From the NCBI GenBank assembly GCA_028287895.1, contig JAQBOV010000055.1:1-64000 (forward strand): DNA of 64,000 nucleotides. Direction: 5' to 3'. Positions 3,013-49,046 of the stretch are shown one piece after another (position 1 is the stretch's first letter; every line of letters starts with the position of its first letter). The notes under the pieces were generated by a model. It was not told the DNA's origin. It searched no databases and saw only the letters and a program-made list of their open reading frames with translations. The DNA is from Mucilaginibacter sp. (GTDB taxonomy: Bacteria; Bacteroidota; Bacteroidia; Sphingobacteriales; Sphingobacteriaceae). The position numbers were made by a program, and so were the translations under genes.

Positions 3013-3873
3013 ATGAAAGGTATTATTTTGGCGGGCGGCTCAGGAACGAGGCTTTTCCCAATCACAAAAGCGATCAGCAAACAACTGATGCCTATATACG
3101 ATAAGCCCATGATATACTACCCGTTGTCAGTATTGATGATGGCTGATATCCGCGAAATACTGATCATTACCACACCTGAAGATAGCGAAAGCTTTAAAAG
3201 GCTTTTGGGCGATGGAGGTGACGTGGGTTGCCGTTTTGAATATGCCGTACAGGCTGTCCCTAATGGTCTGGCCCAGGCTTTCGTAATAGGCGAGGAGTTT
3301 ATAGGCAAGGATAAAGTTGCGCTGATATTAGGCGACAATATTTTTTATGGCACCGGTTTTGGCGCGCTGATAAAAGAATTTAATAAGGTGGACGGCGCTG
3401 CAATATTCGCCTATAAAGTGTCAGACCCGGAACGATATGGGGTAGTAGAGTTTGATAGTGAATACAGAGCACTATCCATTGAGGAAAAACCATTGAAGCC
3501 TAAATCGCAATACGCCGTACCCGGTTTATACTTTTATGATAATGAAGTAGTGCATATTGCAAAAAATATAGAACCATCGGTACGCGGCGAATATGAGATC
3601 ACCGATGTGAATAGGGTATATCTCGAAAACAAGAGGCTATATGTAGGGGTAATGGACCGCGGCACTGCCTGGCTGGATACAGGTACCTTTGACTCGCTAA
3701 GTGATGCAACCGAATTTGTAAGGGTAATTGAAAAGCGGCAGGATACCAAAATCGGGTGTATTGAAGAAGTAGCTTTTCGTCATGGGTTTATTGACAAAAA
3801 CCAGCTAAGCGCTCTTGCGGATAAATATATTAAAAGCGGGTATGGGATGTATCTGAAAAACCTGCTTCAATAA
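3013..3873 (+). CDS. rfbA: Glucose-1-phosphate thymidylyltransferase
   Basis: [39 protein letters not shown] signature. Confidence 0.97.
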
Positions 3874-3910
3874 CGGAATACCGATCTGAACTCAAAGACG
3901 ACTGCAATCG

Positions 3911-4066
3911 ATGCTTCGCGGGCGTTTTAATTCTTACTATCCGCTATACACTGGTTTCAAGTTTAAGCGGCGGATAGAAACGGATGATGGTGAACGCTAT
4001 TGGCAATTCTCGGATACATACCCTTGCGGGAGGGCAACCCAATCTTCGAATAACGCATCCGGTTGA
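3911..4066 (+). CDS. Possible small ORF (51 aa), unknown
   Basis: ATG-to-TGA frame MLRGRFNSYYPLYTGFKFKRRIETDDGERYWQFSDTYPCGRATQSSNNASG; below the ORF-track cutoff; no homology known to me. Confidence 0.2.
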   Translation: MLRGRFNSYYPLYTGFKFKRRIETDDGERYWQFSDTYPCGRATQSSNNASG

Positions 4067-4219
4067 TGCCTGATTATGGCTTATACTCCGAGACTTTATA
4101 TATCTGGTGTTATCTCCTATTTACCAATCTTTTAAATTATTGGCGTATATCTTTTATGTTCAAATAGTAGCGGCGTTCTTACCGGCCACCAGAACTGCTT
4201 AGGCTGTCAATGCCAGGCG

Positions 4220-5713
4220 TCACTTATTATTTTGAATATATTGCTTGTATATTTTCTCTGCCGTATGGTAAAACTTATTTACCCGCTGAGCTAATATCCC
4301 AATTGATTCCTGGTCGGGATCAAATACGCTGTTGTATCTTGACTGTGAATAAGAATTTTGCAATAGCGTAAATATTTGAGTTCCCTCTATCGTATCAAGG
4401 TCAAACACGTTTTTTAGGTCATCGGAAAATAGCAGGGTTAACCTTAATAGTCTTGATAGGTTATGCATTTGCACCCGGTAACCTATAATTGCCTGGATCA
4501 TTGCTTTTAATACACTTTCAACCGATTGGTGCAAAAGAAAGGCAGCAAGCCTGGAATTGTTACCGGCGCTATATAATTCCGCACCTTTCAAAAACTCTTT
4601 GCCTTGTACTCCCCATCTTTCCCAATTAAATTTTGCTCTTTCTACCAAGGTTTCATTGGCTATTTCCTGATGCTCCGGCAGTATCAATTCTGATGATTGA
4701 TATACTACAACGCCCTTATCCATAACAGTAGCCCAAAAACGCCTGCCCATATTAAGCGCTTCTTTTGCACTGTTTGCTTTATGAACAATCGCATGTACGT
4801 TGCCAAGGTACTGGCAATTGTCTTCGATCTTATTACTGATTTCATGCTCGGGTGTTCTTTCTTCCTCATCAATCAGGATTAGTAAGTAAAATGTAAACGG
4901 TTTGGGATGCGTGCTTAAATGGACAATCATTTGTACAAACGAAAACCGTTTTAAAATCAAGTTTTTCAACTCTTCTAGAGCTAACTTTTCCGCTGCCGAC
5001 GGGTTAGGGGCTATCTTTCTTATTTCAATTGGATACTGTGCCTGTTCCGTTACTTCTATCTCTTTCCCGGTCTTTTTAAGTTGTGGTCGTTCCGATTCCC
5101 TTTGATGGATCAGCCAGGCTGCCGAATACAGTTTAAGCAGGTTTTCATAAACCGTAATCATGTCCTTTGCATTCAGCCCCTCAAAATCTGCCTTATTATA
5201 TAAAGCCGAATGCAGCCATTCATGAAGTAGATCCCGGTATTGTTGCGGGCTGATATTTTTAAACACTTTTTTTACTGCCTTGTAAGGTTCAAGCAGTTCT
5301 TTATGGGATAGGTTATTAGGAAAATATGCCCATTTCTGTTTTTCCACCTGTAACTGCTCATCCGTTATCTTTTCCCGGCGGTATGAATAATTTTGGTAAT
5401 GGCAATATAAAAGATATACTGCCTCCAGCAATTTCAGATTCATATCATAATCAAAAAGCAAAGTTCCGGGACCATGCCGTTCATTGTCGTAATGCTTATC
5501 ATTGATTACATAATACCGCCACTTTTTTAATTGCTTTCCGTGCCCTTTGACTGAGTCACAACTAAAAAAATCAGCCACCACTGACAATGGATCCATCATT
5601 TCAGTATGGCTCAATGTTTTTGGATAATGTTCCCAAGGTGCATAGGTTCCGAAATCCATAATATTTGATTTATGCCGGCCTGTATTAACCGGCATAACAA
5701 AATAAATCCACAA
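4220..5713 (-). CDS. HEPN-domain protein with degenerate nucleotidyltransferase-like middle region and duplicated N-terminal module
   Basis: C-terminal LAAFLLHQSVESVLKAMIQAIIGYRVQMHNLSRLL resembles HEPN (PF05168-type) helices; two ~101-aa-spaced N-terminal repeats (WEHYPKTLSHTEMMDP / WAYFPNNLSHKELLEP). Annotated start is TTG; an internal ATG (MDFGTYAPWEHYP) is a likely alternative. Confidence 0.65.
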   Translation of the reverse strand: MWIYFVMPVNTGRHKSNIMDFGTYAPWEHYPKTLSHTEMMDPLSVVADFFSCDSVKGHGKQLKKWRYYVINDKHYDNERHGPGTLLFDYDMNLKLLEAVYLLYCHYQNYSYRREKITDEQLQVEKQKWAYFPNNLSHKELLEPYKAVKKVFKNISPQQYRDLLHEWLHSALYNKADFEGLNAKDMITVYENLLKLYSAAWLIHQRESERPQLKKTGKEIEVTEQAQYPIEIRKIAPNPSAAEKLALEELKNLILKRFSFVQMIVHLSTHPKPFTFYLLILIDEEERTPEHEISNKIEDNCQYLGNVHAIVHKANSAKEALNMGRRFWATVMDKGVVVYQSSELILPEHQEIANETLVERAKFNWERWGVQGKEFLKGAELYSAGNNSRLAAFLLHQSVESVLKAMIQAIIGYRVQMHNLSRLLRLTLLFSDDLKNVFDLDTIEGTQIFTLLQNSYSQSRYNSVFDPDQESIGILAQRVNKFYHTAEKIYKQYIQNNK

Positions 5714-5738
5714 ATTTGTCGTAACGAACCATAGTCAG

Positions 5739-5751
5739 TTGTACTTTACAA
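5739..5751. promoter_or_regulatory. Inverted repeat TTGTA-CTT-TACAA in the divergent HEPN/XRE intergenic region (possible operator)
   Basis: Perfect 5-bp arms with 3-nt spacer; a second perfect palindrome ACAAATTTGT lies at 5710-5719. Confidence 0.35.
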
Positions 5752-5798
5752 TTAAAGAGTTGTTTGTTACCTTTACGTTTTAACAATACATTTGACCT

Positions 5799-6197
5799 AT
5801 GGCAGAAACCTTACACATTGGAAGAAAAATCAGCCGCATAAGAGAGTTACGCGGCATTAAACAAGAGGCGTTGGCCGCCGAGTTAGGCATTAGTCAGCAG
5901 GCTGTTTCGAAGATTGAGCAGAGTGAAAAAATTGAAGATGAAGTGTTGGAAAGAGTTTCGCAAGCTCTTGGTGTAACTTCTGATGCAGTTAAAAAATTCA
6001 ATGAAGAAGCGGCTATTAACTACTTCAATACGTTTAATGATAGCACAATTAGTGATTCCTCTTTTAATAATTTCCATTGTACATTTAACCCTATTGATAA
6101 AATAGTGGAATTGTACAATGAAAAAGTGGAGTTACTTGAACGCCTATTAAAAAGTGAGCAAGAAAAAGTCGAACTGCTTAAACAAAACAAAAGCTAA
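5799..6197 (+). CDS. XRE-family helix-turn-helix regulator with C-terminal coiled coil
   Basis: GRKISRIRELRGIKQEALAAELGISQQAVSKIEQSEKIEDEVLERVSQALGVT; C-terminal KIVELYNEKVELLERLLKSEQEKVELL heptads. Confidence 0.9.
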   Translation: MAETLHIGRKISRIRELRGIKQEALAAELGISQQAVSKIEQSEKIEDEVLERVSQALGVTSDAVKKFNEEAAINYFNTFNDSTISDSSFNNFHCTFNPIDKIVELYNEKVELLERLLKSEQEKVELLKQNKS

Positions 6198-6231
6198 CCA
6201 ATCATTTGCTCTTACTATCTGAACTTTTTAG

Positions 6232-6420
6232 TCAGGCCTGATCCATCGTCTTTTTGATTTGCTGGCTTAATCGTTCTGGTAAATACCCGCATTGATAAAA
6301 GATGCCGTTAATGAGTTCGGTAGGATCTCTGTTGTATAGACGCAGGCCGCGACAATAAATTAGCCATTCGACAAAAAAATCAAAGGCGGCAATCGATTTA
6401 TTTTCAGTCTTTTTATGTTG
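6232..6420 (-). pseudogene. N-terminally truncated coding remnant (62 codons, no ATG start)
   Basis: Open frame TAA-QHKKTENKSIAAFDFFVEWLIYCRGLRLYNRDPTELINGIFYQCGYLPERLSQQIKKTMDQA-TGA; protein-like composition, ends against the miaA 3' end; absent from the ORF track. Confidence 0.4.
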
Positions 6421-6435
6421 TTATTGATATTGAAA

Positions 6436-7356
6436 TCATTGGAGAGGTACTTCTTCAAGGATAGTATCAATCAGTAGGGGATTATCTGCCATCAGCCACT
6501 TAACCTCTTTATCTTTCCTAAACCAGGTGAGTTGCCGCTTGGCAAAGCGCCTGGTGTTTTGTTTGATAAGTTCAGTAGCAGCGTTTAAATCGGTTTTACC
6601 ATCAAAATAATCGAATAGTTCACTGTACCCTACCGTATTTAGCGCGTTGAGGTGCCGGTATGGCAAAAGTGATACGGCTTCTTCTACGAGTCCCTGTTCT
6701 ATCATGTCATCAACGCGCTGATTGATGCGCTGATATAGGAACGCTCTGGGCAAATCCAGTCCTATTTTTATGCAATGAAAGGGCCGTTTGTTCGTTACCG
6801 CTTTGCGGTAGGATGAAAAGGGTTTACCGGTGGTTTCAAACACCTCCAATGCCCTGATGAGCCGTTGCGGATTGTTAAGATCGACCTGGTTGTAATACTC
6901 AAGGTCGGCAGTTTTAAGCCGGTGCTGTAAGAACCCTATGCCTTTTTCTGCAAACTCCTGGTTGAGGAGTATCCTTATGGCTGGATCTGCAACAGGCAGA
7001 TCGTCAAAGCCTTTGGTTATTGCTTGTATGAACAGCCCCGAACCACCAGCTACAATTACCTTATCATGGGTTTTAAAAAGCTCATCAAGTAATTGCAGGC
7101 TTTGCTTTTCAAAATCACCAACGGTAAAGTTTTCAGCTATAGAGTGTGAATTAATAAAGTGATGTTTTGCGGCCGCCAGTTCTTCATCAGTTGGTTTCGC
7201 TGTACCGATGGACATTTCGCGGTAAAACTGCCGCGAATCTGCTGAAATTATTTCTGTTTTTAGCTGCTGCGCCAACTCAATGGCTATGACGGTTTTGCCA
7301 ACTGCGGTGGGGCCTTCTATTACAATTAGCGTTTTTGTTTGCTGCTCGTGATTCAT
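6436..7356 (-). CDS. miaA: tRNA dimethylallyltransferase
   Basis: VIEGPTAVGKTVIAIELAQ P-loop, ISADSRQFYREMSIGTAKP, VAGGSGLFIQA. Confidence 0.96.
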   Translation of the reverse strand: MNHEQQTKTLIVIEGPTAVGKTVIAIELAQQLKTEIISADSRQFYREMSIGTAKPTDEELAAAKHHFINSHSIAENFTVGDFEKQSLQLLDELFKTHDKVIVAGGSGLFIQAITKGFDDLPVADPAIRILLNQEFAEKGIGFLQHRLKTADLEYYNQVDLNNPQRLIRALEVFETTGKPFSSYRKAVTNKRPFHCIKIGLDLPRAFLYQRINQRVDDMIEQGLVEEAVSLLPYRHLNALNTVGYSELFDYFDGKTDLNAATELIKQNTRRFAKRQLTWFRKDKEVKWLMADNPLLIDTILEEVPLQ

Positions 7357-7422
7357 AGCTCATGGTAAAGCATTATCAAATAAAATTCTATGAACAAACG
7401 AACCACTACCTATAAGCTGAAA

Positions 7423-8082
7423 TTAATAATCGTCACCATGGAGCGGGTGGCTTTCATCTTCAAATCCTTCATTATCTGAAAACTCATTGCCAAATTCATC
7501 TTCCTCTTCTCCTTCTTCAGTCCCCAGAATGTCTTCGCTTTCTACTTCGTCCTCTGTATCGAGCACCTCCGAGAAACCTTCTTCGGCGTCTTCAGGACTA
7601 AACTCCATCTCATTCAGAAAATCAAAATCTTCACTGGCAGGAGGCAATATCGTAGGGTTAAATGCATTGCCAAATTGTTTTGGTGCTTCTCCCGTTGATT
7701 TAATAATGGCGGGATATACCGTTCCCGGGGTCTCCTCCAGAATGATCTTCAATAACTCGACATGAAAGTCAAAAGGACGGTCAAAATTGAAGGTATAATA
7801 AAATTTTTGATGAGGGTCATCTATACGGTTGCTCAACTTTACTTTGTCCATCAATGCCACGCCACGGTCAATCCTTCTTTGATTGGGTAAGTAAGTAATT
7901 TCCTCACCCTTGATCCATTGATCATTGCTGATATAAAAAGAGGAAGGAAATTCGCAATTATAACCGGTTGACTGATGTATCGCGCGATGAAGGTCCTCAA
8001 AGGTCTGATTGGATTTAACGTCAATTTCCCTTGTCACATCATCGTAATCTTCAAAAGTAACCTTGAATCTGTATAGTGCCAT
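7423..8082 (-). CDS. Plasmid pRiA4b ORF-3-like family protein with very acidic C-terminal tail
   Basis: MALYRFKVTFEDYDDVTREIDVKSNQTFEDLHRAIHQSTGY... typical of the family; C-terminal ~70 aa mostly D/E. Confidence 0.65.
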   Translation of the reverse strand: MALYRFKVTFEDYDDVTREIDVKSNQTFEDLHRAIHQSTGYNCEFPSSFYISNDQWIKGEEITYLPNQRRIDRGVALMDKVKLSNRIDDPHQKFYYTFNFDRPFDFHVELLKIILEETPGTVYPAIIKSTGEAPKQFGNAFNPTILPPASEDFDFLNEMEFSPEDAEEGFSEVLDTEDEVESEDILGTEEGEEEDEFGNEFSDNEGFEDESHPLHGDDY

Positions 8083-40165: not shown

Positions 40166-43100
40166 TCACTGAACTTTAGTTGCTGCTTGTTGCCGGGCTT
40201 TCGCTTGTTTATCCTTCTCCTTCTGCTCCTGTTTGTATTTTCGTTGCATTTCTTTTTCTTTAGGGGTGCTTTTTTTGAATATCTGGCTGAAACGGTTGTA
40301 ATCTACCGTCAGGGTAAATCCCACACCGGTTTCAATAACTTGTCCTTCAATCACTACAAATTGATCGCGCCGGTAAAAACGCAGCATGTACCTTCCATCT
40401 GCGCTCAATTTATAATTTACCATGACATTGCCGGCGATATCGGAAGCCTTTTGTCCGGGTTGATTCTGACCCTCCAGGTTAAAGTTATTACCAACGTTTA
40501 CCGTAAGCCGGTCATTCAGGAACCGTTTGGAAAGACCCACGTTCAGGTCGGTCCGGTTTTGGGCTGTACCGGAAGAGTAATCCTGGCCGGATGTCAAGCC
40601 GAAATTAAGATCGACACCGGCAATCAGGTTACCGGCAAGGCGGTTTAGCTGATCTGACAATAAGCTGCTTACACTATTACGGACAAGTCCCTCAACTCCC
40701 GAGCTGCCGCCCTGGCTTTGTAATGGATTATCCCCGATAAAATGGCCAAGCACCAACACGCCCAACACCTGCTTGTTCAGTTCATTAGGATCTTGTCTGA
40801 TCTGTGAAAGCCGTGAATCAACCGTATTAATTATGTCCTGAGAAACGGTATAACTGCTGTCCGGTAATATAATATCAAAGCTGATATCTGGTTTTAACAG
40901 ATCATTTTTAAGATAAAGATTTACATTGAAAGGCAACTTTTGCTTGTACATGGTTTGATTGTCAGTTCCCGCTAACTGATTACTTACCAGGTCTATAGGG
41001 GGGACGTCCGCGATATAGGTAGCGGTGAGATTAATATTGGCACTGGTTGGATCCCCGGTCCAGGTAATTGAACTCCCTTTTTTAAAGACGAATTTACGAT
41101 TAACCGAGGCATATGAAAGATTATAAGAACCCTGGTTAACTACATAGGTGCCCGTAAGGTTCGTTTTTCCGCTTGGGTCAATGGCTCCGTTCAACTGTGC
41201 CTGCCCTTTTAAATGAACAATGTCGCCATTGTTTTGATCGACGACGATATTGAAATTGGCATTCGGATTGACAATAATATTAGCGGATATATCCAGCCCG
41301 TTCAAATCACTTTTCCGGAGCGAATCCAGGCGCCTTGCCAAAAGTATGGAGTCAGTTTTTGGTGAATTAGGATTAATGAATTCTACTACTCCTTTTCTAT
41401 CCTCTATGCTGGGGTCGTTGGATGGCAAAACGATGGTAAGGTCCGTTTTATCGTTAACGGTGAGGTTTGCATCAACAACGGGCGTATTCATATCGCCGCG
41501 TATTTTAATATCACTATTGATATATAATTTACCGTAATACAATTTATTATTTGCCTGCGTGGAATTCATTACCCTGAAGTTATCGGTATGAATATCCAGG
41601 TTGAAATCAAAGTCGGTATAGGTTTTAGTATAAACCGCACCTTTTATAACTGCTTTATTCCCGACCGAATCAACCAGTGTAAAATCATTAAAGTGCACAC
41701 CGTCATTACTAAATGTTATACTTTCTGCCGGCATGGTGAAGTAGGAGTTGAGCATGGAGATATTGAAGCCTACTTTATTAAACTTAATATCACCTCTTAT
41801 AGCAGGAGCAGCGGTAGTTCCCGCAATTTTTAATTGACCCGATAGATCGCCCCGTCCTTGTTTAATACTTCCAAAGCTGAAGCCTTCAATACTTTTTACA
41901 TTTAGTTTTACGATGTTAAGGTTCAAATCAAAGCGGCTTTGCGGGCCGGTGTAATAGATGCCGTCCATATTCACCTGATTGCCTTTGCCGGTGACGCTTA
42001 CATTGGCGGCAAAAGCATTGGCTGTTTGATTATTTACTTTGAGGGCAATATTACCAACGGTATCACCCTTAAAGTTAAAATCGCCGATATTTAGAGCAGC
42101 GGTAAATACCGGTGATTTTTGAAAATTGCTGATTCGTGCATTGCCATTTATTACCCCGCCGATTTGTAATGAATCCTGCTCTGCGATACGGGTTAATGTT
42201 TCAATATGGAAGTTTCTGAAATCAACGTTAACGGGCGAATTCATTTGCTGCGAAACGCTGGTGATGCTCAATACCTGGTTGCTGTTGGTGATGGTAAAAT
42301 CTTTTGCCAGCATGCCCTTGCTGCCAAACTGAAGCATATTGTCAGCGTTTACTGCCCAGAGTTTGTAATCAAGAAGCAGGCCATTTTGCAGGAAGCTAAA
42401 TTGATATTCGTCCGGTAGAATGCTGAACGCGCCGGCAATGCGGTAACGTTCTTTTTTAGCGGCATCCCGCACCTGTAAACTGATGTTGAGCTTATCGTTT
42501 TGCGCATTGCCTGTTATGCTGGTATAAAGCAGATTAACTGAGGAAGATGCCTTGATCTGGTCGGCTGTCAGGCTGTAATCTAATCTGTCCTGGTTAGTTT
42601 TGATAGCCAGCTTCAGATTACTCACCTCATTAGTGCCATAAATTACCTTTGGCATTGCTCCATTAACTATAAGATCACCTGTTTGACTATTGAAATAACC
42701 GTTTATAATTACCGGATCAAGTTGTTTCAGAGCCGGAGCAAACTGGGTAACCAGAGGCGTTTTTACAAACCGGGCATCAAAAATAAATTGTTCGGGTGCG
42801 TATTTTGGTTTGGCTTTAACGGTTTTTGTTGCTACAGACCTGTTAAAATATTGATCGATCACATCCTGCATTGCAGTGCCGATCTCCGTCAGTTTATATC
42901 TGCCCGCCAGGTGAGCGGTTAGCATCGGGGCTTTTAATCTTAAACTGCTGCTGTCGGCATTTGCAGTTGATATCAGGCTAACCGTATCCAGTTTAATCCG
43001 TTTGCCTGCATTAACCAGCAGCAAATCGGTAGCCCGGATATCAGCATTGAGGTAATCCGGGTCAGCGGTTGGCACATCGGCTGCAATTTTGCCGTGAAAG

Positions 43101-45268
43101 CGGGTGTCAGTTTTTGCAAGATTTAAATTTTGCAGGTTGATGCTGTCAATAACTAAGGTAGCTTTCACAGAAGGGTACTTTTTATTCAGATCAGCTTTAG
43201 CATCCAGGCTGAAATTAATATTGGGGTCTTTCATACGCGCAACAGCGGTATAACTGCCATTTACAGCGGTACCTTTTAACACCAGGTTTCTATAAGTGTA
43301 ACCTTTTATGTTTGCGCTTGCCACCTCCCCGTTTAATTGCAGGCTGGCCTTTTTAGGATCAGTCCCGGTTCCTGCCAGGTTAGCCGATAAAGTAATATTG
43401 CCGGCTGTTTGTGGTTGTTTGGTCAGGGCGCCCACGTTTAAATTATTTGCCTGGATACTTGCTGAATAAACCGCATTCGTTTTACTGCTGCCGTTCTTCA
43501 TGTTAGCATTCAGGTCAACATCACCATAGCTTGAGCGCAGCGCCATTTGAATATTGAAGTTTTTCATGCTTCCCTTAAATTTACCTTTCAGGTTCAGTTT
43601 TTCAGGGATACCGATATTAGCAGGCAGCGTTCCCCGCGGCACTACTTTTGCAAGGTCCGCCTGGCTGGTATTAAAGTCGGCTATATTCAGATCAAAATAG
43701 GCTTTATTCACATCAGGTAAGCCTTTGATAGTAGCCGAAGCTTTAATATGCGTATTACTCAAGCCGGTAATCTCTAATGATGGGATACTAAGATCATTTA
43801 CCTTGCCCATCACTTTGCCATTGATGCGGAAAACAGCGTTCGGCGAATGTCTGAACGGTTCCATGGCAGCCATCGCTGGCATCAATAATAATACATCTTT
43901 CAATCCCAAACTGCTGCCGTCCAGATCGGCATTGATCCGTATCTGGCTTATATCTTTACTGATATTAGCCAGTGAAGGATAACCCACTTCCAGATGTTTT
44001 TGCAAAACAGTGTGTGGTGTTTCAAGATATAAGTTGTTTAAATAGGATTTATGCGGACCATAGAAAAATGTGGTACGAAGCTTTCTGATTTCGAGGCCGC
44101 TTTTTTCACTAAAGGCCAGGTTGTTAACCTTTGCAGAAATAGTATCGGTATTATATGCGAGGTTTTCAAGATCCGCACTCAGATTACGGATATTCATGTG
44201 TGCATAATCCAAACCAGTGGCTAATGGCTTTTGTGCATTATTATCGAACTGAATATGATCGTTACTAAAGCTGATTTTCCTTAAAACAGCAGTCCATCCT
44301 TTTGTGCGTTGAGGGCCGGACACCAAAGTATCCAATTTTTTCACCGTTTTCGCTACCGCTTTCTTTACGGTTTGCGGTTTGGCGAAGGTGAGTGAAGCTC
44401 TGGTATCGTCAACAGATAGGTTATTAATATCAGCGACCTGATTTTTTAAGTCGAGCTTATTCATCACGACCAGGAATTTCCCCAGATTCACATCAGCAGC
44501 CATTTCATTGCTGCGGTAATTAATTTTGATTTTGGATACATCGATCGTACCCAGGTTAAGAACCATGTTGATGGGCTTGGTGGTTGTGTCTACGGTTGCA
44601 GCCTTCGCTAGCGATGACCCTGCCGGTGTCTGTACTATTTTGGCATCAACATCTGATAAGGTGATCTTTGGAATGCTAAATTTCATTTTATCCATATTAA
44701 AATCCTCAATACGGGTATCAAAATGACCAAGTATAAACTTTACATGATTACCATTGGTGGCATCCTTATAACTGATGTTTATTTTATCCAGAATGATTTT
44801 ACTTAGTGAAAACTTCATGCTGGAAGTAGTATCCGTAGGTCTTACCGGTTTTTTTTGTTCGCTGGTGAACGCTTTTATAATATAATCGAAATTGAAAACG
44901 CTGTCCGCCCCGCGGTTTACATTGGCTGTAATACCTTGGAGATTAATTTCATTTATTTCAACTTTATGGCTAAAAAGTTTTAACAGGCTGATGTCGACCT
45001 TCAGCTGATCACCTGCTATCAGGGTATCCTTTTTCTGATCTTCAAAATAAACGCTGTCTAGTACGATGAGCTTGGGTAGCCCCAAACTGATATGCCCTAT
45101 TTTAACTTTTGTATGAATTTTATTTTGCAAAAAGGTTACCGCTTTGTCCTTTGCAAAATTTTGAACGGCAGGTATTTGTATTAAAATCACTACAAGCAGT
45201 AATAAAAATATTACACTGCCAATAATCCAAAGAATGGTCTTTAGCGCTATGCGTCCAAATCGTTCCAA
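40166..45268 (-). CDS. Translocation/assembly module TamB-family protein
   Basis: 1700 aa, N-terminal TM anchor, long beta-repeats, C-terminal DUF490-like region; adjacent to the TamA-like gene. Confidence 0.88.
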   Translation of the reverse strand: MERFGRIALKTILWIIGSVIFLLLLVVILIQIPAVQNFAKDKAVTFLQNKIHTKVKIGHISLGLPKLIVLDSVYFEDQKKDTLIAGDQLKVDISLLKLFSHKVEINEINLQGITANVNRGADSVFNFDYIIKAFTSEQKKPVRPTDTTSSMKFSLSKIILDKINISYKDATNGNHVKFILGHFDTRIEDFNMDKMKFSIPKITLSDVDAKIVQTPAGSSLAKAATVDTTTKPINMVLNLGTIDVSKIKINYRSNEMAADVNLGKFLVVMNKLDLKNQVADINNLSVDDTRASLTFAKPQTVKKAVAKTVKKLDTLVSGPQRTKGWTAVLRKISFSNDHIQFDNNAQKPLATGLDYAHMNIRNLSADLENLAYNTDTISAKVNNLAFSEKSGLEIRKLRTTFFYGPHKSYLNNLYLETPHTVLQKHLEVGYPSLANISKDISQIRINADLDGSSLGLKDVLLLMPAMAAMEPFRHSPNAVFRINGKVMGKVNDLSIPSLEITGLSNTHIKASATIKGLPDVNKAYFDLNIADFNTSQADLAKVVPRGTLPANIGIPEKLNLKGKFKGSMKNFNIQMALRSSYGDVDLNANMKNGSSKTNAVYSASIQANNLNVGALTKQPQTAGNITLSANLAGTGTDPKKASLQLNGEVASANIKGYTYRNLVLKGTAVNGSYTAVARMKDPNINFSLDAKADLNKKYPSVKATLVIDSINLQNLNLAKTDTRFHGKIAADVPTADPDYLNADIRATDLLLVNAGKRIKLDTVSLISTANADSSSLRLKAPMLTAHLAGRYKLTEIGTAMQDVIDQYFNRSVATKTVKAKPKYAPEQFIFDARFVKTPLVTQFAPALKQLDPVIINGYFNSQTGDLIVNGAMPKVIYGTNEVSNLKLAIKTNQDRLDYSLTADQIKASSSVNLLYTSITGNAQNDKLNISLQVRDAAKKERYRIAGAFSILPDEYQFSFLQNGLLLDYKLWAVNADNMLQFGSKGMLAKDFTITNSNQVLSITSVSQQMNSPVNVDFRNFHIETLTRIAEQDSLQIGGVINGNARISNFQKSPVFTAALNIGDFNFKGDTVGNIALKVNNQTANAFAANVSVTGKGNQVNMDGIYYTGPQSRFDLNLNIVKLNVKSIEGFSFGSIKQGRGDLSGQLKIAGTTAAPAIRGDIKFNKVGFNISMLNSYFTMPAESITFSNDGVHFNDFTLVDSVGNKAVIKGAVYTKTYTDFDFNLDIHTDNFRVMNSTQANNKLYYGKLYINSDIKIRGDMNTPVVDANLTVNDKTDLTIVLPSNDPSIEDRKGVVEFINPNSPKTDSILLARRLDSLRKSDLNGLDISANIIVNPNANFNIVVDQNNGDIVHLKGQAQLNGAIDPSGKTNLTGTYVVNQGSYNLSYASVNRKFVFKKGSSITWTGDPTSANINLTATYIADVPPIDLVSNQLAGTDNQTMYKQKLPFNVNLYLKNDLLKPDISFDIILPDSSYTVSQDIINTVDSRLSQIRQDPNELNKQVLGVLVLGHFIGDNPLQSQGGSSGVEGLVRNSVSSLLSDQLNRLAGNLIAGVDLNFGLTSGQDYSSGTAQNRTDLNVGLSKRFLNDRLTVNVGNNFNLEGQNQPGQKASDIAGNVMVNYKLSADGRYMLRFYRRDQFVVIEGQVIETGVGFTLTVDYNRFSQIFKKSTPKEKEMQRKYKQEQKEKDKQAKARQQAATKVQ

Positions 45269-45461: not shown

Positions 45462-48400
45462 ATGCCAGATTTTTCGCACTTACACGTACATACCCAGTTT
45501 TCATTGTTAGACGGTGCCGCTGATATCTCCAAATTATACAAAAAGGCAGCCAGCGATGGAATGAAGGCTTTGGCTATTACCGATCACGGCAATATGTTCG
45601 GGGTATTTAAGTTTGTTGCCGAAGCAGGCAAGCATAATATCAAACCGATCGTAGGCTGCGAGTTTTATGTGGTTGAAGACCGGCACAAAAAACAATTTAC
45701 CAAGGAAAAGAAGGACATTCGCTGTCATCAGTTGCTTTTGGCTAAAAATGCCGAGGGCTACAAGAACCTGGTGAAGCTTTGCTCATTGGGCTATATGGAA
45801 GGGCTTTACAGTAAATGGCCGCGCATTGATAAAGAACTGATATTAAAATATCATAAAGGATTAATTGCCACTACTTGTTGTATCGGTGCATCGGTGCCGC
45901 AGGCTATACTAAAAAAGGGGGAACACGAAGCGGAACAGGAATTTAAATGGTGGCTTGACCTCTTTGGCCCGGACTATTATATTGAGTTGCAGCGGCATGA
46001 TATCCCTGAGCAGAATACGGTTAATGCAGTACTGTTAAAATTTGCCAAAAAGTATAACGTAAAAGTGATCTGCTCCAATGATTCACATTATGTAGATCGC
46101 CAGGACTCAAATGCACATGATATTTTGCTTTGTGTAAACACAGGCGATATGCAAAGCACGCCTATAGCTACCGATGAAGAGGGTGGCAAAGGGTATCGCT
46201 TTGGTTTCCCGAATGACCAGTTTTACTTTAAGACGCAGGCCGAAATGGGCAAACTGTTTAGCGACTTACCTGAGTCATTGGATAATACCAACGAGATTGT
46301 AGATAAGGTTGAAGTATTGAAACTGAAGCGGGATATTTTATTACCCAACTTCGTCATCCCGGACGAATTTAAGATACATAACACGCCTGATGCCGATACC
46401 CTCAACCAGTGGGAGTATCTAAAGCACCTCACCTTTGTGGGCGCCAAGGAGCGTTATAAAGATATCAGTCCGGAAGCGGAAGAACGCATCAACTTTGAGC
46501 TCTTCACTATCCGTACCATGGGTTTTGCCGGGTACTTTTTGATTGTGGCCGACTTTATAAAAGAAGGACGCAATATGGGCGTATTTATTGGCCCCGGCCG
46601 CGGATCGGCTGCCGGTTCGGTAGTAGCCTATTGTACAGGAATTACCAATATCGACCCCTTAAAGTATAACCTCCTGTTTGAACGTTTCCTTAACCCCGAC
46701 CGTAAGTCGATGCCCGATATCGATACGGACTTTGACGATGCAGGCCGGCAAAAAGTGATCGATTATGTAGTTGATAAATATGGTAAAAACCAGGTAGCAC
46801 AGATCATTACCTACGGCTCTATGGCCGCACGTACCAGCATACAGGATGTAGGCAGGGTATTGGACATGCCGCTGTCGGAAGTTACAGCCCTGAAAAAGCT
46901 TGTGCCGGACACTTTGGGTATTACCTTACGTGGCGCTATTGACCAGGTGCCCGAACTTCAGCAAATATACAAGGACCCCGGTCTGAAAGGCATTGTACTT
47001 CGTGAGGCCGAAAAACTGGAAGGATCGGTACGTAATACCGGTGTGCATGCTGCCGGTATCATCATTGCACCTTATGACCTTACGGATATTGTTCCGGTAG
47101 CGACAGCCAAGGATTCTGACCTGCTGGTAACCCAGTTTGACGGTCGGGTGATAGAGGATGCCGGCGTTATCAAAATGGACTTTTTGGGTCTTAAAACACT
47201 CACCATTATTAAGGATGCTTTAAGACTGATCAAACAAAATCATGGTGTCACTATCGACATCGATTATATCTCGCTGGAAGACGAAGAAACCTTTGCGTTA
47301 TATCAACGCGGTGATACCAACGGTACTTTCCAGTTTGAAAGCGACGGGATGCAAATGTATCTGCGCGACCTTCGGCCCGATAAGTTTGAGGACCTGATCG
47401 CCATGAACGCTTTATATCGCCCGGGACCGATAGAATATATCCCCAACTTTATTAAACGTAAGCACGGGCTGGAACCGATCACCTTTGATCTGGCCGATAT
47501 GGAGGAATACCTGGGCGAAACCTACGGTATTACTGTTTATCAGGAACAGGTGATGCTTCTTTCGCAGAAACTGGCCGGCTTTAGTAAAGGTGATGCCGAC
47601 GTGCTGCGTAAAGCGATGGGCAAGAAGCAGATAGAAGTGCTTAACAAAATGGAGGCCCAGTTTATGGACGGGGCTGCAGCTAAAGGGCACCCTAAGGATA
47701 AGCTGACCAAGATATGGAACGACTGGAAGGCGTTTGCACAATACGCCTTCAATAAATCGCACTCCACCTGCTACGCTTTTGTGGCTTATCAAACCGCTTA
47801 CTTAAAGGCGCATTACCCTGGTGAGTATATGGCCGCGGTATTAAATAACCAGAACAGCATTGAAAAAATATCCTTCTTTATGGAAGAATGCCGGCGCATG
47901 AGCGTACCTGTGCTTGGTCCGGATATTAATGAATCGGATATGGCATTTGCTGTAAATAAAAAAGGCGAGGTGCGTTTTGGATTTACAGGGATTAAGGGCG
48001 TAGGTGATAAAGCCATAGAAAGCATTATCGAGGAGCGGGAAAAGAACGGCCCGTATACCTCTGTTTATGATTTTGCAAGGCGTTCCAATGTGCGTTCGGT
48101 TAATAAAAAATCATACGAAAACCTGGTTTACAGCGGGGCTTTTGACGAATTTAAATTGAACCGGGCCCAGTTTTTTGCCAAAACTGAAAATGGTATATTG
48201 ACAGGGGTGGAGCGGCTGAATAAATATGCTAATGATTATCAGAATACCCAAAACAGCTCACAGTCATCCTTATTTGGCGGTTCGGTAGCGTCTTATATTC
48301 CGGAGCCACCGATGCCTGATGCAGAGGAATGGCCGCTGATCGAAAAGTTAAAATATGAAAAGGATGTGATCGGCATTTACCTTACCGGGCACCCGCTGGA

Positions 48401-49046
48401 TAATTATAAACTGGAATTACAGCGTTATTGCAATACCACGGTATCTGATCTTAAACTGATGCAAAAAGCCCGCTCCGGTGAAGGGGGGGACGATATAAAG
48501 GTTGCCTTTGCCGAGTTACGCAAACGGGCAGACGTAAGCGTAGGCGGCCTGGTTTCAAACGTTCAGCATAAAATGACCAAGACGGGCAAGCCGTTCGGCA
48601 CTTTTGTGATTGAAGATTATAATGACTCTTACGAGTTTGCCTTGTTTGGCGAGGATTATATTAAATTCAGGAATCTGCTTGTTGATGGTTACTTCCTGCA
48701 TATTAAGGGAAGTATCGAAGAAAAATTCAAACAAAAAGATAACTGGGACCTGCGCATCGCTTCCATGTCGCTGTTATCTGAAATGCGGGATAAATTGATG
48801 AAATCAATGACGGTTTGCCTCGAACTAAATTCGCTGAACAGCAGTTTAATGGATAGGCTTGAACAAATAGTGGAAAGCAATAATCAGAAATATCCTGTAA
48901 AAAACTGCACCCTGCGGTTTATGGTGAAGGATATGGAGGAATCCATACTGGTAGAACTGCCTTCAAAAACCTTTAAGGTCAACCCAAGCGATGATCTGAT
49001 GGCCGAGATACAAACTTTGACCAATGTTGAGCCGATGATTAAATAG
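45462..49046 (+). CDS. dnaE: DNA polymerase III subunit alpha
   Basis: PHP domain FSHLHVHTQFSLLDGAADI; GPGRGSAAGSVVAYCTGIT; PDIDTDFDD. Confidence 0.97.
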   Translation: MPDFSHLHVHTQFSLLDGAADISKLYKKAASDGMKALAITDHGNMFGVFKFVAEAGKHNIKPIVGCEFYVVEDRHKKQFTKEKKDIRCHQLLLAKNAEGYKNLVKLCSLGYMEGLYSKWPRIDKELILKYHKGLIATTCCIGASVPQAILKKGEHEAEQEFKWWLDLFGPDYYIELQRHDIPEQNTVNAVLLKFAKKYNVKVICSNDSHYVDRQDSNAHDILLCVNTGDMQSTPIATDEEGGKGYRFGFPNDQFYFKTQAEMGKLFSDLPESLDNTNEIVDKVEVLKLKRDILLPNFVIPDEFKIHNTPDADTLNQWEYLKHLTFVGAKERYKDISPEAEERINFELFTIRTMGFAGYFLIVADFIKEGRNMGVFIGPGRGSAAGSVVAYCTGITNIDPLKYNLLFERFLNPDRKSMPDIDTDFDDAGRQKVIDYVVDKYGKNQVAQIITYGSMAARTSIQDVGRVLDMPLSEVTALKKLVPDTLGITLRGAIDQVPELQQIYKDPGLKGIVLREAEKLEGSVRNTGVHAAGIIIAPYDLTDIVPVATAKDSDLLVTQFDGRVIEDAGVIKMDFLGLKTLTIIKDALRLIKQNHGVTIDIDYISLEDEETFALYQRGDTNGTFQFESDGMQMYLRDLRPDKFEDLIAMNALYRPGPIEYIPNFIKRKHGLEPITFDLADMEEYLGETYGITVYQEQVMLLSQKLAGFSKGDADVLRKAMGKKQIEVLNKMEAQFMDGAAAKGHPKDKLTKIWNDWKAFAQYAFNKSHSTCYAFVAYQTAYLKAHYPGEYMAAVLNNQNSIEKISFFMEECRRMSVPVLGPDINESDMAFAVNKKGEVRFGFTGIKGVGDKAIESIIEEREKNGPYTSVYDFARRSNVRSVNKKSYENLVYSGAFDEFKLNRAQFFAKTENGILTGVERLNKYANDYQNTQNSSQSSLFGGSVASYIPEPPMPDAEEWPLIEKLKYEKDVIGIYLTGHPLDNYKLELQRYCNTTVSDLKLMQKARSGEGGDDIKVAFAELRKRADVSVGGLVSNVQHKMTKTGKPFGTFVIEDYNDSYEFALFGEDYIKFRNLLVDGYFLHIKGSIEEKFKQKDNWDLRIASMSLLSEMRDKLMKSMTVCLELNSLNSSLMDRLEQIVESNNQKYPVKNCTLRFMVKDMEESILVELPSKTFKVNPSDDLMAEIQTLTNVEPMIK

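Follow-up and report, generated by a model that had tools for sequence, protein, structure and literature searches.

Several described systems combine a HEPN domain with other partners. In HEPN/MNT (HepT/MntA) toxin-antitoxin modules, which consist of two small genes and have a mobile distribution, the HEPN stands beside a nucleotidyltransferase-fold domain. HEPNs that are fused to nucleotidyltransferases are mostly inactive (PMC3710099). The solo HEPNs of the AF0298-like group and of AbiV retain the arginine at the end of helix 3, have lost the histidine of the Rx4-6H motif and carry a conserved histidine between helices 2 and 3; for this shared His/Arg pattern an alternative active site was proposed by Anantharaman and co-workers (PMC3710099). 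Tha, a phage defence protein encoded by a prophage gene, places a C-terminal HEPN with a canonical Rx4H motif behind an N-terminal region (PMC11087260). XRE proteins are a common class of antitoxins (PMC2701414). The gene pair analysed here lies in a 64,000-nucleotide stretch of Mucilaginibacter sp. DNA, the whole of which is referred to below as the window.

The pair consists of two divergent open reading frames, one on the minus strand (4220-5713, 497 aa when read from a TTG codon) and one of 132 aa on the plus strand (Table 1). In relatives of the longer protein, the conserved N-terminus begins at the position equivalent to the ATG at 5659, and nucleotides 5660-5713 align as conserved leader DNA. 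The TTG start is therefore probably wrong, and the frame given as 497 aa in the initial annotation, while present at its coordinates, more likely encodes 479 aa. The leader also contains a potential hairpin, which in relatives carries an upstream ATG and a GGAGG-like loop. The shorter protein matches Pfam HTH_3 (E=1e-12), in agreement with its earlier description as an XRE regulator divergent from the HEPN gene. Comparison of the longer gene, referred to as the effector, with a 90%-identical copy elsewhere in the same genome (contig C99) gives a dN/dS of 0.147, denoting purifying selection; several relatives have in-frame stops in this gene. Elsewhere in the window, two very long frames are also divergent (40166-45268, minus strand, 1700 aa; 45462-49046, plus strand, 1194 aa).

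Table 1. Features of the HEPN/XRE locus (window coordinates).
Feature	Position	Strand	Basis
Insertion between convergent rfbA and miaA	3874-6435		Genes directly adjacent in near relatives
Three-part effector gene (helical N-terminal, dead nucleotidyltransferase-like and HEPN domains)	4220-5659	-	Intact ORF, 479 aa
HEPN domain, PF05168; putative alternative-site residues H399 and R441 (479-aa numbering)	4223-4627	-	Pfam, profile, structure
Nucleotidyltransferase-like domain without GSx(n)DxD	4655-5003	-	Residues ~220-335, boundaries approximate
N-terminal (NT) domain, ~205 aa, predicted all helical	5042-5659	-	Separate gene in related genera; AF2 model
Conserved GCCGG...CCGGC inverted repeat in effector leader	5669-5696	-	Alignment; z -2.45 for leader
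Candidate XRE operator TTGTACTTTACAA	5739-5751	+	Between divergent genes; conservation
Conserved promoter-like elements of XRE gene	5764-5792	+	TTTG-N19-TACATTTG in relatives; alignment
XRE-family regulator, coiled-coil-like tail	5799-6197	+	HTH_3 match; neighbouring homologue in all 33 complete fusions that could be assessed
Relic of mobilization accessory gene, 3' end	6212-6267	-	80% over 56 bp to L005:6405-6460

The HEPN-like ending noted in the initial annotation is a genuine HEPN domain, as the earlier proposal required, both by family match and by predicted fold. It matches PF05168 (HEPN-T) with E=1.5e-10, above the gathering score, across residues 365-487 of the 497-aa form; a profile search relates it to PDB chain 4nqf (E=4e-14), and the predicted structure (pLDDT 84) agrees with this solved HEPN at a TM-score of 0.92, normalised to 4nqf. 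Of the 91 different HEPN domains in the retrieved loci, at most two have the canonical Rx4-6H motif at the expected place. Conserved instead are H399, R441 and H377 (86/91 each) and E381 (89/91). Judged by sequence, H399 and R441 match the alternative site proposed for the AF0298 and AbiV HEPNs, made up of an arginine and a histidine from the insert between helices 2 and 3. Unlike those solo proteins, the HEPN in the window shares its polypeptide with two other domains and has an XRE gene as partner. The alternative-site pattern is conserved, yet nucleotidyltransferase-fused HEPNs are mostly inactive, and any activity of this domain is putative.

The stretch preceding the HEPN has a nucleotidyltransferase-like order of strands and helices, and its GSx(n)DxD catalytic motif is missing from all 21 aligned relatives, bearing out its description as degenerate. 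A Rhizobium plasmid protein (P0003, ~300 aa) that aligns over ~220 residues retains the motif (ILFGSYAKG...YRSDFDLLIIV), direct evidence of its loss from the Mucilaginibacter domain; the alignments indicate a nucleotidyltransferase domain that is catalytically dead throughout the family. P0003 and 4nqf, both fused nucleotidyltransferase-HEPN proteins, have the same domain order and the same HN and ARY residues in the HEPN; P0003 differs in keeping GS...SDFD and in having neither the N-terminal domain nor an annotated XRE gene within 4 kb. Structural matches to Hailong HalB and other nucleotidyltransferases were weak, with large rmsd, and were not used.

The remaining part of the effector, residues 1-205 of the 479-aa protein (the NT domain), is predicted to be entirely helical (AF2: pLDDT 91.6, pTM 0.87). 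A search with stand-alone copies returned no Pfam match, and no convincing match was found among PDB structures or folds. NT is a domain undescribed before and an equal partner of the other two, existing elsewhere as a gene of its own. In related genera, a pseudo-nucleotidyltransferase-HEPN protein and NT are encoded by two neighbouring genes; the HEPN protein also occurs alone, as does NT inside a conjugative element. The NT tree requires at least ten changes between the fused and separate states, at least four of them forced by well-supported branches. A family-wide search found some match in 173 of 301 genomes, mostly to the HEPN half alone.

This architecture led us to reject a classical HEPN/MNT toxin-antitoxin. 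A HEPN beside a nucleotidyltransferase-fold domain and a mobile distribution are common to both; here, a single 479-aa polypeptide lacks both the nucleotidyltransferase motif and Rx4-6H, has an extra N-terminal domain and is accompanied by an XRE gene. Nor are there two small genes of the HEPN/MNT type, the split forms elsewhere being the pseudo-nucleotidyltransferase-HEPN and NT. Thus, of the earlier reading as fused MNT and HEPN parts, the presence of both domains in one frame stands, whereas the notion of a fused classical pair does not, both catalytic motifs being lost and NT being a third, equal partner.

Conservation of the XRE gene next to the HEPN fusion, on which the earlier proposal depended, is borne out in Mucilaginibacter. 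Every complete single-ORF fusion with upstream sequence within its locus has a divergent upstream XRE homologue (33/33, one with a further ORF in between), so that no complete fusion without XRE was seen in this set. The same holds within the window's own genome for the copy on C99 and for a third one on C33 that is cut by the contig end. Conversely, XRE without HEPN is common: 50 of 72 XRE-homologue loci adjoin NT and/or HEPN, and the other 22 have integrases, relaxases or a second XRE as neighbours. Where the parts recur in other combinations, their XREs are of at least three types that are not orthologous to one another. Same-family XRE genes are also found in tandem pairs with neither HEPN nor NT next to them (L126-L130 and L123). 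In three other loci (L056:1928-3625, L079 and L120) the XRE adjoins a protein of 440-565 aa for which no Pfam match was found and which carries a cluster of cysteines and histidines (C-x-C...C-x2-H type); in L056 this protein occurs together with a HEPN gene.

A 13-bp palindrome, TTGTAnnnTACAA, is found about 60 bp upstream of most class-1 XRE starts. It is exact in 29 of 67 cases and within one mismatch in 47, against 0% and ~2% in shuffled sequences; the class-2 XREs, which have a different HTH, carry TTCTAnnnTAGAA within one mismatch in 13 of 28 cases (shuffles ~3%), related loci being non-independent so that all these counts overstate the evidence. None of the 28 class-2 XREs has the class-1 site within one mismatch. 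The half-site thus changes with HTH class, as operator recognition predicts, a pattern that points to autoregulation of XRE via the candidate operator; the protein would fit an autoregulator that binds the operator in the promoter region common to both genes. Between the operator and the XRE gene, the conserved promoter-like elements, which we take to be of the Bacteroidota type, stop a few bases short of the ATG. In the window's genome the exact operator occurs at four sites, two in the paired promoters and two inside coding ORFs, with no other intergenic exact copies found; sites with one mismatch number 46, against 32 for a reversed-pattern control (an excess of at most ~1.4-fold). Regulation of other genes of this genome by XRE was rejected, both extra exact matches lying inside coding ORFs.

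In near relatives rfbA and miaA abut, with overlapping stop codons in two of them (L132 and L133). These relatives represent the empty site, and the segment separating the two genes in the window is therefore an insertion, consistent with the earlier placement of the pair between them. Clean repeats bounding the insertion were not found, only short ones of low identity; there is no tRNA integration site in the window and no known RNA element in 3500-7500. Next to the XRE gene lies a remnant of a mobilization accessory gene whose counterpart accompanies the C99 copy. Together with the C99 locus, this relic suggests that the islet derives from a mobilizable element that has decayed, while the HEPN/XRE pair has stayed intact. 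Relaxase, conjugative-transfer or recombinase genes are present in the fetched flanks of 36 of 43 loci, a raw count taken without a baseline; they include relaxases of the MobA/VirD2 type or DUF5712, conjugative TraM/TraN, integrases and serine recombinases, and mostly face the 3' end of XRE directly; the relaxases belong to several unrelated families. The pair is carried by Mucilaginibacter conjugative or mobilizable elements. The suggestion of an accessory islet is thus supported, with the correction that such elements, rather than generic islets, are the main context.

The evidence supports the domain make-up, the motif loss, the His/Arg pair, the pairing with XRE, the tracking of operator and HTH, the mobile context and the insertion. 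We regard the gene pair as a probable toxin-like or defence module. The explanation that we favour, tentatively and with the balance still slightly on the side of doubt, is that of an accessory module of these elements in which XRE represses a three-part HEPN effector serving in addiction, exclusion or phage defence. A non-toxic role in regulation or housekeeping appears unlikely, though several observations speak for it: the HEPN would serve a dead nucleotidyltransferase as its nucleotide- or RNA-binding domain and help control transfer or mobilization genes, XRE being the ordinary regulator of the element. The fixed position beside mobilization or Tra operons, the XRE genes in HEPN-free elements (22/72) and the non-canonical state of both catalytic motifs agree with such a role. 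Yet the HEPN protein remains intact where mobilization genes have decayed, and the window's genome has no exact operator copy at other intergenic sites. The HEPN protein is found alongside several transfer systems that are unrelated to one another, and its XREs are of at least three unrelated types. Since this would be unusual for a dedicated regulator, a repressed effector fits better than a regulator of transfer.

How tightly the two genes are coupled bears on a second alternative, a true type II toxin-antitoxin, with the fusion protein bound and neutralised by the tail of XRE. XRE belongs to a usual antitoxin class and shows the conserved two-gene pairing; a fusion never seen without XRE, combined with frequent XREs without fusion, is what an antitoxin that has to persist longer than its toxin would produce. 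However, the fusion loci are divergent rather than co-transcribed as an operon, the partner is 479 aa long and its toxin role is putative. Moreover, XRE is swapped over effectors that are 88-90% identical. Between the window and C99, the effector, the intergenic region and the first ~60 bases of XRE are ~90-100% identical, and beyond these bases XRE falls to ~50-75% identity per 100 bp; the L148 effector is 88% identical to that of L144, whereas the L148 XRE is of the other class and has its own operator. A Mantel comparison of the effector and XRE distance matrices gives r=0.39, above all 2000 permutations; this value is low for an obligate pair, and the two proteins are only loosely coupled. 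As the HEPN protein has hardly changed while its XRE was exchanged for a different one, XRE is not established as a dedicated protein antitoxin, and we consider the type II reading distinctly improbable.

Several defence families (TIR-LRR, DRT2, type I restriction and SoFic) are represented among the genes that lie downstream of the module, as against none of 46 window genes, a control unmatched for mobile DNA, so that the enrichment may reflect mobile DNA only. Directly downstream of the L144 effector copy lies a gene for an LRR-Roc-COR-TIR protein (L144:7997-10915). The contig of the C99 copy also encodes an N6/N4 DNA methylase (L005:15433-16323) and a predicted P-loop ATPase which, from its sequence, looks KAP-like (L005:52-2070). 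A phage origin was rejected, no match being found in phage records or PHROGs. The least probable of the alternatives, an XRE-repressed, Abi-like phage-defence effector carried as cargo with the NT domain as sensor, could draw on the downstream defence families and on the Tha-like layout of a fused sensor-like N-terminal domain and C-terminal HEPN on mobile DNA, but the control is unmatched, phage records hold no homologue, Tha has the Rx4H motif that this HEPN family does not, and its likeness is one of layout, with no sequence link shown.

In the favoured model of a repressed effector on a mobile element, XRE would bind the operator that lies in the divergent promoter shared by the two genes, and would repress both promoters. 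Either this repression or the effector's own restraint would be lifted when the element is lost, or when a phage or a competing element enters. The helical NT domain might recognise the trigger or the target, with the dead nucleotidyltransferase domain acting as scaffold or restraint; a HEPN dimer would then attack RNA through the alternative His/Arg pair, or bind RNA without cutting it, and cell arrest would follow. Repression, trigger, RNase activity, toxicity and benefit are the parts of this model that we infer. Against it count the lack of a catalytic motif of proven kind, the mostly inactive state of nucleotidyltransferase-fused HEPNs, the in-frame stops in several relatives, and the low matrix correlation and XRE swaps, which are unlike a tightly co-evolved toxin/antitoxin pair. 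The effector also has no match in NCBIfam and no catalogued defence match in PADLOC-DB 2.0.0 at E<=1.

Among the open-access papers searched, we found no earlier description of the HEPN-fusion/XRE pairing. It is possible, although we regard it with appreciable doubt, that the modules form an undescribed family of systems for addiction, exclusion or defence, borne by mobile elements in Sphingobacteriaceae, with an alternative-site HEPN, swappable XRE repressors and a helical targeting domain without match among solved structures. If the protein is indeed an effector, these HEPN/nucleotidyltransferase modules would have lost both classical active sites and yet stayed under selection, their regulation having passed to an exchangeable cassette of XRE plus operator. 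The alternative His/Arg site of AF0298/AbiV-type HEPNs would then become directly testable as an RNase site, and a recurrent, unannotated component would be added to the conjugative and mobilizable elements of Bacteroidota.
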